DNA from: Actinomycetales bacterium
Lineage (GTDB): Bacteria; Actinomycetota; Actinomycetes; Actinomycetales; Kineosporiaceae
Length of the DNA stretch: 38,461 bases
Assembly (NCBI GenBank): GCA_012719445.1
Contig: JAAYAH010000029.1
Location: 1-38,461 of the forward strand
Reading direction: 5' to 3'
The notes beneath the pieces are model-generated. The model was not told the DNA's origin and did no database searches. It worked only from the letters and a program-made list of their open reading frames with translations. The stretch's first letter is position 1. Each line of letters opens with the position of its first letter. A program made the translations under genes and the position numbers. Below, piece by piece: positions 25,403 to 36,339 of this stretch.

Positions 25403-27322
25403 ATGGAGCAGACACCCGCTCGCCCCGTCCTCGCCGTGGTCACCGGGGTCGAGGAGTACCAGACGCGCCTCCTCAGGGGGATCGGGGCCGGCCTCGTCCC
25501 CCACGGCGTCCCGCTGCTCGTCCACGCCAACGACCCGTCGGTCAACAGCGTCCCCCCGCTGCTGCGGCGGCTGCTGCACGCCGGCGGCTTCAGCGGGATC
25601 GTCACCGCGCCGGGAGTCACCACGGAGGAGGAGCGCCAGCTCATCGAGCTCCTGGACACGCTCGACCTGCCGGTCGTGCACATCGGGCAGGACGTCCCCG
25701 ACGCGATCACCGTCCACGCCGACAACGTCGCCGGGATGAGGGCCCTCATGGCCCACCTGCTCGACGAGTGCGGGGCCAGGAACCCGGCCATGGTGCGGGG
25801 TATGGCCCACCAGCCGGACGCGGCGACCCGGGAGCAGGTGTTCCGGGACGAGCTCCGGCGTCGGGGGATCTCCGTCCAGGAGGAGCTGATCGTCGACGGG
25901 CGGTCGACCTACGACCACGCGTACGAGGCGACGAGGGCGCTGTTCGGCGAGCACCGCGACATCGACGTCGTCGTCGCGGTCAACGACTCGTCCGCCTTCG
26001 GGGTCCTCGACGCGCTGACGGACATGGGCTACGAGGTCCCGGCCGACGTGATGGTGACCGGGTTCGACGACGACCCGGCCGCCGCCCTGCACTGGCCGGG
26101 GCTGACGACGATCGACCAGGACGTCGAGGGGCAGGGCCGGCTCGCCGCGGCGCTGCTCATGGAAGAGATCACCGGGCACCGGGCGGATCGCGGCCGGGTG
26201 GTCCCGTCCCGGCTCGTCGTCCGCGGCTCCACGCAGCCCGGGGGCGACCGGGGGGGTGACCGGCTCGCCGAGGCCCACGCCATGAACCGGGCCATCCAGG
26301 GCCACGTTGCCGCCCGGGACGCCGTGCTCGGTCTCAACCGGGTGATGAACCGGTGCCGGTCCATGGACCGGGTCGCCACCGCCCTGGCGTCACGCCTCGA
26401 CAACCTCGGCATCCGCCGCTGCTTCCTCGCCGTCTACGAGTCGGTCGGCAGCGAGATCCCGGTCACCGGCGAGCGCGCCCGCCTCATCCTCGACTACCGC
26501 GACGGGAAGACGACACCGGTCGACGACGAGGTCTTCCCGACGCACCAACTGCTCCCGGAGCCGCTGCGGACCGAGCTGCAGCAGGGGATGATCGTCCTGC
26601 AGCCGCTGTCCGGTCTGGACCGGGATCTCGGGTACGTGCTCTACGAGCAGGTGCGCGGGGTGACCCGGGTGGCCGAGGCACTGCGCCACGACCTGTCGCG
26701 CACCCTCGACTCGGTGGCCAGCACGCAGTCGCTGGAGGACCACGCCGCGACGCTGGAGGCGCTGGTCGCCCAGCGGACCCAGGAGCTCAAGCGGGCCAAC
26801 GCCGAGCTGCAGCGCTCGCTCATGGTCGACGGCCTCACCCGGATCGCCAACCGGATCGCCTTCGAGCGCCACCTCGAGGCCCAGTGGAAGGAACTGGACG
26901 GCCGCGAACTGGCGTTGCTCATCCTCGACGTCGACCTGTTCAAGGCCTACAACGACCGGTACGGGCACGTGCACGGCGACGAGGCGCTGAAGATCGTCGC
27001 CTCCTGCCTCCAGGAGTCCGCACGGCACCCCGGCGACCTGGCCACCCGGTACGGGGGCGAGGAGTTCGCGGTGGTGCTCCCGGACAGCGGCGTCGAGGCG
27101 GCCTCGGCCGTGGCGACCCGGTTCCGCGCCCTCCTCGCCGAGGCCGCCATCCCGCACAGTGCGTCCTCGGTCGCCCCCGTGGTCACCGCCAGCATCGGCA
27201 TCGCCGTCGCCAGGGTGCGTCCGGGGCTCAGCCTCGCGGTCGTGGTCAACGCCGCAGACCAGGCCCTGTACCGGGCCAAGGCCCTCGGCCGGAACCGGAT
27301 CGCCTTCGCCGACCGGATCTGA
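25403..27322 (+). CDS. LacI-type sensor / GAF-like / diguanylate cyclase fusion
   Basis: A 639-residue soluble protein. Residues about 8-285 form a periplasmic-binding-protein-like domain of the LacI/GalR class (VLAVVTGVEEYQTRLLRGI, GIVTAPGV, DIDVVVAVNDSSAFGVLDAL, VMVTGFDDDPAAAL, TTIDQDVEGQGRLAAALL). It has neither an N-terminal HTH nor a signal peptide, so it should sense a sugar-like or other small ligand in the cytoplasm. Residues about 300-430 look GAF-like. A coiled coil near 445-472 leads to a GGDEF domain with an intact catalytic motif GGEEF at 551-555, so diguanylate cyclase activity is expected. The inhibitory RxxD site reads H-P-G-D, losing its Arg. The start is ATG 25403; the AGGAG before it is close (about two bases), so a start further upstream is possible. 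Confidence 0.9.
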   Translation: MEQTPARPVLAVVTGVEEYQTRLLRGIGAGLVPHGVPLLVHANDPSVNSVPPLLRRLLHAGGFSGIVTAPGVTTEEERQLIELLDTLDLPVVHIGQDVPDAITVHADNVAGMRALMAHLLDECGARNPAMVRGMAHQPDAATREQVFRDELRRRGISVQEELIVDGRSTYDHAYEATRALFGEHRDIDVVVAVNDSSAFGVLDALTDMGYEVPADVMVTGFDDDPAAALHWPGLTTIDQDVEGQGRLAAALLMEEITGHRADRGRVVPSRLVVRGSTQPGGDRGGDRLAEAHAMNRAIQGHVAARDAVLGLNRVMNRCRSMDRVATALASRLDNLGIRRCFLAVYESVGSEIPVTGERARLILDYRDGKTTPVDDEVFPTHQLLPEPLRTELQQGMIVLQPLSGLDRDLGYVLYEQVRGVTRVAEALRHDLSRTLDSVASTQSLEDHAATLEALVAQRTQELKRANAELQRSLMVDGLTRIANRIAFERHLEAQWKELDGRELALLILDVDLFKAYNDRYGHVHGDEALKIVASCLQESARHPGDLATRYGGEEFAVVLPDSGVEAASAVATRFRALLAEAAIPHSASSVAPVVTASIGIAVARVRPGLSLAVVVNAADQALYRAKALGRNRIAFADRI

Positions 27323-34695: not shown

Positions 34696-36339
34696 TCAGC
34701 CGACGACGGTGGCGTCGCCCCCGTCCCCCTTGGCCGCGTACATCGCCACATCGGCCCGCCGCAGCCAGGCGTCGTCCTCGATCGGCTCGCGCCGCACCGC
34801 GACCCCGACGCTCACGGTGACCCTGTCCGCCCTGCCCGAGCCCGACCGCTCCCGCACGGTCTCCCGCAACCGGTCGCCCAGGGCGGCCGCGGCGGTCGCG
34901 TCGAGGAGGGCGACGACGACGAACTCGTCCCCGCCCCAGCGCGCGACGATGTCGTCGGACCTCGCCGCCGCGCGCAGCGCCGCGGCGACCCGCCGCAGCA
35001 CGGCGTCGCCCGCGAGGTGGCCGCAGGTGTCATTGACCTCCTTGAACCCGTCGAGGTCCAGCAGCAGGAGGGCCACGTTCTCCCCTGCGGGACGGCGGCT
35101 CGACTCGGCGATGGCCGCCGCCGCGCCGCGCCGGTTCACCAGGCCGGTCAGGGAGTCCAGTGAGGCGGCCCTGGCCAGCAGCCGCCGCTCGTCCGCGCCG
35201 CGGAGCAGGTCGACCCGGGCCCGGAAGAGGGCTTCGAGCAGGGCCATGTCGTCCCCGACCCGTTCCTCGGCCAGCCGGACGTACTCCGCTGCGCCGCTGC
35301 CCTCGCGCTCGACCTCGGGATGCTCCGCGCGCATCACCTCGTAGGCCAGCACCTGCCGGTCCCCCTCGACCCCGCTGCCCTCGATCTTCGACAGCAGCAC
35401 CCGACCGGCCTGGACGGCCTCGGCCGACCGCCCCTCGCGGACCAGGGCCCGTACCCACGCCGCCCCCCACAGCAGTTGCGGGGGCACCCCCTCCGTGCCG
35501 CGGTCGAGCACCGAGCGGCATCCCTCCAGGCGTTCCATGGCCGCGGCGGAGTCCCCGGTCGCCGCCTCGCGCAGGGCCTGCAGCACCCGTTCCTCGTCGG
35601 CCACGACGTGGTAGGAGTCCCCGTCCGACAGCCGGACGGCCCGGTGGATCTCCTGCACCGCCTGCCCCAGCAGGTCGGCGTCCGGGACGTACGGCGGGCG
35701 GCGGCCCACCGCCATGCCCGCCACGGCGTGTTCGAGGGCGAGGTTGCTCCACCGGGCGACCCGGTGGTGCCGGGGAAGGAAGGTCTCCACGGCCTCGAGC
35801 CGTGACTCGACCCTTCGGGCCTCGTCGGCGACCCCGAACAGCCGCAGCGCGACCCCGAGCGCCCCCAGCGCCCCCTGGATCTCCTGGTTCTCCAGGTCAC
35901 GGAGCCCCGGCTCCATGGCCAGCGCCTGCGCCAACTGCTCGACGGCCTCCTCCATCCGGCCCTCACGACGGAGCAGGTCGACCAGCAGTGCCCTGCCCTG
36001 CAGTCCGGTGGCCATGAGTTCGTGCTCACGGGAGATCGTCACGAGGTCCTGCGCGACCTCGACGGCCGCTGCGGTCTCCCCGGCCATGTGGAAGGCGAGG
36101 GCACGGGCGTAGAGGGCGTGGGCCCGCTGTCGGGGACGGGTCTCCTCGGCCAGCACGGCGGCGGTCTGCCGCAGGACGTCGCCCGCGTGCCCGTCCTGCG
36201 CCCGGACGATCCAGTCCTCGCCGCGACTCACCGTCGATCCGCCTTCCCGCGCGACCGCGACGAGGCCGCGCACCGTCACCGGCATCGTCTCGCACGTCGC
36301 GTCATCAGGGTCACTCGCGGCACCGTGCGTTAACGTCAC
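34696..36339 (-). CDS. Diguanylate cyclase with helical (TPR-like) repeat domain
   Basis: A 547-residue soluble protein. Residues about 45-370 are alternating amphipathic helices with TPR-like spacing (for example RQRAHALYARALAFHMAGE, then GRMEEAVEQLAQALAMEPG). The C-terminal ~165 residues form a GGDEF domain: SLDSLTGLVNRRGA at its start, DLDGFKEVNDTCGHLAGDAVLRRVA, and the catalytic GGDEF at 469-473. The I-site is intact (R-S-D-D, five residues before GGDEF), so product inhibition is expected. The repeat domain may bind partner proteins. GTG 36339 is taken as start; ATG 36285 is an alternative. There is no membrane segment. Confidence 0.9.
   Translation of the reverse strand: MTLTHGAASDPDDATCETMPVTVRGLVAVAREGGSTVSRGEDWIVRAQDGHAGDVLRQTAAVLAEETRPRQRAHALYARALAFHMAGETAAAVEVAQDLVTISREHELMATGLQGRALLVDLLRREGRMEEAVEQLAQALAMEPGLRDLENQEIQGALGALGVALRLFGVADEARRVESRLEAVETFLPRHHRVARWSNLALEHAVAGMAVGRRPPYVPDADLLGQAVQEIHRAVRLSDGDSYHVVADEERVLQALREAATGDSAAAMERLEGCRSVLDRGTEGVPPQLLWGAAWVRALVREGRSAEAVQAGRVLLSKIEGSGVEGDRQVLAYEVMRAEHPEVEREGSGAAEYVRLAEERVGDDMALLEALFRARVDLLRGADERRLLARAASLDSLTGLVNRRGAAAAIAESSRRPAGENVALLLLDLDGFKEVNDTCGHLAGDAVLRRVAAALRAAARSDDIVARWGGDEFVVVALLDATAAAALGDRLRETVRERSGSGRADRVTVSVGVAVRREPIEDDAWLRRADVAMYAAKGDGGDATVVG

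Follow-up and report, generated by a model that had tools for sequence, protein, structure and literature searches.

To our knowledge, the signal that is sensed is unknown for most diguanylate cyclases. The available text of a 2022 review on cyclic di-GMP (c-di-GMP) counts Periplas_BP among the notable putative sensor domains (PMC8846402). No characterised fusion of such a LacI-type ligand-binding (PBP) domain to a GGDEF domain was found in the literature searched, most subscription journals lying outside its coverage, and the accessible parts of PMC1592074 and PMC1183210 make no mention of a PBP-GGDEF architecture. For two other groups of cyclases the accessible text describes a relation between linker length and switching: Rec-GGDEF cyclases, which switch the register of a coiled coil, have an axxdexx last heptad and linker lengths in steps of seven (PMC8041772), and phytochrome cyclases follow a similar length rule, with exceptions (PMC9587094). 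Actinobacterial genomes carry between 0 and 80 GGDEF proteins each, according to the available part of a survey of genomes other than MAGs (PMC10746217).

We analysed a stretch of 38,461 nucleotides (the window) of contig JAAYAH010000029.1, from an Actinomycetales bacterium of the Kineosporiaceae (assembly GCA_012719445.1), and followed up one of its genes, which combines a LacI-type domain and a GGDEF domain in a single frame. Our preferred reading, to which we assign a probability of about 0.6, is that its product acts as a soluble, cytosolic one-component diguanylate cyclase that would be switched by ligand via a coiled-coil register shift.

Domain layout of the window protein

The gene (25403..27322, plus strand, as are all features below unless stated otherwise) starts with ATG and encodes 639 residues, which were divided into domains using the open reading frame, Pfam and an AlphaFold model. 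Pfam recovers Peripla_BP_3 at residues 122-277 (E 9.5e-29; Peripla_BP_1 matched too) and GGDEF at residues 474-632 (E 1.4e-44), both well past chance level and both in one frame, as expected from the first-pass annotation, which had proposed a LacI-type sensor fused to a GGEEF cyclase. The model, built with 28 paralogues (mean pLDDT 89.7), shows the order PBP, helix, GAF, helix, GGDEF; the arrangement of these domains is uncertain, because the pTM of the full model is only 0.69. The LacI-type domain comprises residues 9-273 (25427..26221) and its fold is closest to LacI-family regulators by Foldseek, namely a LacI ancestor, CelR with cellobiose and RbsR with ribose. A connecting helix (residues 284-316, 26252..26350, from the model) leads to residues 321-420 (26363..26662), for which Pfam returned no GAF profile match up to E 0.1. 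Modelled alone, this middle part forms a small alpha-beta domain (pLDDT 92.3) that matches many GAF entries, with VIA-align Z scores up to 11.9 and an rmsd of 2.8 over 134 residues. The two-part layout described earlier thus had the sensor and the cyclase right, but overlooked the GAF domain between them. Residues 423-473 (26669..26821) form a long signalling helix in the model, a probable coiled coil judging from linker length modulo 7 and heptad pattern, and the GGDEF domain, assigned by Pfam, follows at residues 474-635 (26822..27307), with WspR as its closest solved sequence.

No LacI helix-turn-helix (HTH) was matched by Pfam in the window protein. The position of the start was compared among the 39 pieces of the paralogue family described below: the N-terminal anchor motif is correctly placed in 28, the remaining 11 being mis-anchored by the search pattern or devoid of an N-terminal end, and in 18 of these 28 an ATG lies exactly 8 residues ahead of the motif, as does the ATG at 25403 in the window gene. 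Upstream, a GTG and a TTG occur 18 and 32 codons before this ATG, and the frame is open to 25265 only, so the space is too small for a LacI HTH. A Kyte-Doolittle scan in 19-residue windows detected no membrane segment; the most hydrophobic stretch (mean 1.58) starts at residue 597, within the GGDEF domain. An upstream start that adds an HTH or a hydrophobic leader, one of the findings that were to overturn the first-pass annotation, was therefore looked for and rejected on the common start, the short upstream frame and the lack of a hydrophobic stretch, and the proposed absence of HTH and membrane parts holds, a hydrophobic leader likewise being absent by the Kyte-Doolittle scan.

In the cyclase domain both the GGEEF active-site motif (residues 551-555, 27053..27067; translation and paralogue alignment) and the DxLT motif, here DGLT, are conserved. 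GGEEF is present in 27 of 28 aligned paralogues, the remaining one being degenerate, and from its intact catalytic motif the window protein is most likely a diguanylate cyclase. The RxxD inhibitory site is not required for diguanylate cyclase activity. At the place of this I-site the window protein reads HPGD (residues 542-545, 27026..27037; translation and paralogue alignment), the canonical Arg being replaced by His, as had been noted, with an Arg one position earlier (RHPGD). This replacement is no peculiarity of the window protein: among the 28 paralogues RxxD is found in 8, only the shifted Arg in 13 and neither in 7, i.e. the canonical site is missing in 20. The suggested loss of product feedback agrees with the missing Arg, but this alone does not establish it.

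The window gene has as neighbours a DUF456 gene on one side and a convergent sigma-70 gene on the other, neither of which gives a hint to the ligand. The window encodes a second GGDEF protein (34699-36339, minus strand, 547 aa), with the GGDEF domain at residues 392-541 and no further Pfam match.

A paralogue family with exchangeable outputs

A profile of the PBP and GAF parts matched 36 places in the source genome at E 1e-60, compared with 3, 2, 1, 1 and 1 in five and none in seven of the 12 other genomes of the same taxonomic family. From the source genome 39 family pieces were extracted, of which 28 comprise a PBP-GAF-GGDEF region (27 with GGEEF, one degenerate), two end in PAS-GGDEF-EAL, one in a HATPase histidine kinase and one stops after the GAF domain; two further pieces together make up a single copy, probably frameshifted, and five of the 39 are cut at or near contig ends. 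The sensor half is thus modular, its output being GGDEF, PAS-GGDEF-EAL, histidine kinase or none. Right behind the kinase-output member (L048:7181-9466, HATPase_c) comes a GGDEF-EAL gene (L048:9466-11751) of the same strand. In total, the source genome contains 106 GGDEF, 50 EAL and, over the cut-off, 75 Peripla_BP_3 matches, fragments at contig ends included. As many as 40 of the 106 GGDEF matches share a frame with a LacI-type domain: 30 belong to the window family and 10 to a second class of longer LacI-type PBP and GGDEF proteins, six of which also contain EAL. Nine of the ten second-class frames are L046:4292-7048, L051:5381-8734, L058:1367-4552, L059:5947-9165, L060:6775-9909, L061:4948-9447, L062:6534-8897, L063:4680-7550 and L063:7594-11337.

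The assembly consists of 283 contigs, several copies are truncated at a contig end or close to one, and two cut copies (L052 and L047) are near-identical in the tree, which raises the question whether mixed or duplicated contigs have inflated the paralogue number. This is highly improbable: completeness is 99.3 and contamination 1.85, the GC content of the 31 sequences compared is even (0.72, SD 0.012), three copies lie in tandem on contig C194 and others share contigs C155, C10, C104 and C144, and the 27 other aligned rows are 41-61% identical to the window protein, and are hence not strain variants. Contamination as the origin of the copies is likewise unlikely in view of assembly quality, even GC and several copies per contig.

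To place the family in its evolutionary context, a PMSF tree of 47 rows was used, with 35 copies of the source genome, five from two sister genera and other rows; four of the 39 pieces, being the two halves of the frameshifted copy and two cut copies, were left out. The 35 and the five copies are intermixed and form one group to the exclusion of the remaining rows (92/97, not starred), the outgroup rows being distant, long-branched and unsure. Two subclades contain source-genome copies only, one of 9 rows (100/100) and one of 16 rows (85/95). Mapping of the genome label on the tree needs 5 changes, at least 3 of them by starred branches, and in two starred forks a source-genome copy is paired with a copy from a sister genus. 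Unless genes were exchanged, some of the expansion is thus older than the genus split. With five copies from two sister genera inside the clade, an expansion confined to the source genome could not be upheld. Each of the two EAL-output copies is sister to a GGDEF-output copy (100/100) and a starred clade unites the kinase-output copy with two GGDEF copies, which by parsimony suggests at least three output changes.

Among 396 sampled Actinomycetota genomes, scored for presence on the four best candidates per genome, the PBP and GAF part occurs in three at E 1e-55, the source genome included. A sister genus (L151/G007 and L152/G004) has one copy per genome at E 1e-60, in which about 130 additional residues separate PBP from GAF and the GGDEF motif is degenerate (GGQRF). 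L177 (G165), from another family of the phylum outside the order, is a close relative (E 1.7e-134) and a possible case of horizontal transfer. A plasmid search yielded only weak matches among the best ten, annotated as LacI regulators or unannotated. Further away, uncharacterised PBP-GGDEF frames with a GGDEF motif, mostly of 620-750 aa, occur in Lachnospiraceae, Ruminococcus flavefaciens, Butyrivibrio, Treponema and Granulosicoccus. The 80 loci fetched are 18-31% identical to the window protein; in 31 of them the match extends to at least residue 391 of the 438-residue query, i.e. into the GAF part. Among the matches listed, the 81 frames (80 loci plus the window) comprise 46 with GGDEF, 22 with a LacI HTH, 4 with HATPase_c, 3 with EAL and 3 with HD. 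In the Spirochaetales MAG Zod_Metabat.353 (L091/G050) the PBP and GAF profile has 90 matches, and the frames of most of the listed ones span 700-1300 aa. LacI-type sensors with other outputs may have expanded independently here; plain LacI regulators may be among the matches. The view of the window gene as a little-described module is correct insofar as no biochemical study was found in the literature searched, but it is not a one-off, having about 36 paralogues and counterparts in other phyla.

Putative ligand pocket, linker phasing and the proposed switch

R143, D195 and D222, which we take to lie at or beside the ligand-anchoring places of LacI and PurR, are invariant in all 28 aligned paralogues, as are D139, R132 and W231. 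Conversely, positions 193, 196, 169 and 170, which flank these putative anchors, are highly variable. Position 168, presumably the stacking place in PurR and LacI, is Phe in 21 of the 28 and Ser in the window protein, so its pocket is possibly atypical. Invariant anchors with variable flanks fit a retained ligand binding with scope for different ligands, without proving it. The conserved anchor residues make the earlier proposal of sugar-type sensing plausible.

The ligand may be of another kind, such as a nucleobase, a quorum signal or another metabolite, the mechanism being otherwise the same. Purines are the ligands of PurR, a protein of this LacI-type fold, and the sequence matches include PurR chains. 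No gene neighbourhood indicates a sugar, but the nearest folds are those of the LacI ancestor, CelR with cellobiose and RbsR with ribose, and the source genome has 92 matches to CBM_2, a cellulose-binding family, which suggest a strongly plant-polymer-degrading organism; we therefore consider a non-sugar ligand rather unlikely. Pairing of the family itself with cellulose-binding or plant-polymer genes was not supported. CBM_2 is the commonest family among 116 neighbour genes (7/116, genes called by a GC3 script), but it has those 92 matches in the genome as a whole. A CBM_2 match lies within 2 kb of 5 of 37 family places, compared to 6 of 68 places with another GGDEF, not counting 7 weak or cut GGDEF matches, and 5 of 39 with another PBP_3; when family places are distributed at random over their contigs, 3.5 on average come to lie near CBM_2 (p 0.21).

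The GAF domain could be a second or even the main sensor of the window protein. In the extreme case the PBP half would be a non-sensing dimerisation scaffold and the GAF domain the real input, consistent with the pairwise identity of GAF, which at a mean of 37.5% is below that of both PBP (47.6%) and GGDEF (56.8%), as expected for a diversifying input. We regard this as improbable, given that the PBP anchors are invariant while their flanks vary strongly and that all 37 matches to the window-type GAF in the source genome are found in frames with PBP, in a frameshifted copy or in copies cut at a contig end or near it. A further possibility is that the paralogues are largely redundant and share one ligand, having arisen by duplication and drift rather than for ligand diversity. 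At 16 PBP positions that we took to form the pocket core the mean entropy is 0.83 bits, compared to 1.60 for the whole PBP domain, and some copies are decaying, namely the one whose GGDEF is degenerate, the frameshifted one and the one that lacks an output; the mean PBP identity, however, is 47.6% while GGEEF is kept in 27 of 28, and the residues next to the anchors diverge strongly, so that we hold redundancy to be doubtful, albeit a serious option.

The linker between GAF and GGDEF, measured in the 28 paralogues as the residue count from L435 (GAF helix) to D476 (DxLT), has lengths of 23, 41, 55, 58, 62, 69, 76 and 97 residues. Six of these, 41, 55, 62, 69, 76 and 97, equal 6 modulo 7 and together cover 26 of the 28 proteins, and the two exceptions, 23 and 58, each fall 18 residues short of one of these lengths (41 and 76, respectively), a relation that was noticed post hoc. 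If lengths were independent, the probability of at least five of the seven lengths other than 41 matching the remainder of 41 would be 0.001. No such rule holds for a loop in the GAF domain, whose 13 lengths spread over six remainders modulo 7 and which served as control, other stretches being too constant in length to be informative. Counted back from DxLT, heptad position a is Leu at -7 in 28/28 and at -14 in 27/28, and positions d and e of the last heptads are mostly Ser, Ala, Asn or Leu (Ser at -4 in 17, Leu or Ala at -3 in 24, Ala at -11 in 21 and Asn at -10 in 24 of the 28). By analogy with the Rec-GGDEF cyclases, length rule and heptad pattern point to the same register switch in the window protein.

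In the ligand-switched cyclase that we favour, a small molecule, most likely an imported sugar or sugar derivative, would bind in the cleft of the LacI-type domain, and closure of this domain would be relayed through the connecting helix to the GAF domain. From there the signal would pass along a parallel coiled coil to the pair of GGEEF cyclase domains, which a shift in coiled-coil register would switch. The DNA-binding output of a LacI repressor would herewith be exchanged for c-di-GMP synthesis. Ligand class, direction of control, register shift and physiological role are what we infer from the features described above. Flagellin is encoded in 13 of 13 genomes of the taxonomic family, source genome included. 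The source organism most likely belongs to the family of Kineosporia but to another genus, as one genome of its family (G008) shows the two GyrB/ParE places of G038, the Kineosporia babensis genome of locus L136. On a wider scale we tentatively suggest, with the odds still against it, that some 40 cytosolic LacI-type receptors for different imported metabolites may form an internal chemosensory array that writes into c-di-GMP (a few into a kinase or phosphodiesterase) and replaces direct transcription control in a flagellated, plant-polymer-degrading actinobacterium.

Comparison with described systems

A single sensor family that resembles well-understood sugar repressors has about 36 members in the source genome, alongside its 106 GGDEF matches. 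With their common domain order and phase-locked linkers they amount to an unusually large set of inputs to a single signal, c-di-GMP. Since the paralogues differ in pocket flanks, linker length and type of output but agree otherwise, they provide a natural experiment that makes the coupling of ligand to register directly testable.

With LacI/GalR regulators (the LacI ancestor 9nt3-9nt5, CelR 5ysz, RbsR 9ny7 and CcpA) the window protein has the ligand-binding fold and the anchor residues in common; unlike these, it has no DNA-binding domain and a cyclase as output. WspR is closest to its GGDEF domain, and coiled-coil linker lengths in steps of seven are shared with WspR/DgcR-type cyclases, as described for Rec-GGDEF proteins in the available text of PMC8041772, whereas its input is a LacI-type domain plus GAF instead of a receiver domain and its canonical I-site Arg is missing. 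In the PadC phytochrome cyclases, too, a coiled coil leads to GGDEF, and its length mostly changes by multiples of seven (PMC9587094). The fold matches of the GAF-like part of the window protein include phytochrome GAF domains; no phytochrome domain set is seen in this protein, however, and light sensing is not suggested. A periplasmic PBP-cyclase of the CdgH type would be expected to have a signal peptide or transmembrane helix before the cyclase; the Kyte-Doolittle scan gives no hydrophobic segment here. In another actinobacterium, Actinoplanes, AmlR/ACSP50_2473 also ties a LacI-type regulator and maltose metabolism to c-di-GMP, but according to the available part of that report sensor and cyclase are not fused there: the LacI-type protein stands alone and represses an operon in which a maltase gene and a GGDEF-EAL gene are found (PMC6828939). 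In view of the PBP-GGDEF frames of rumen Clostridia, Treponema and Granulosicoccus the domain order itself is not new; the novelty seems to lie in the size that the array reaches within a single genome, in the swaps of output and in the phase-locked linkers.
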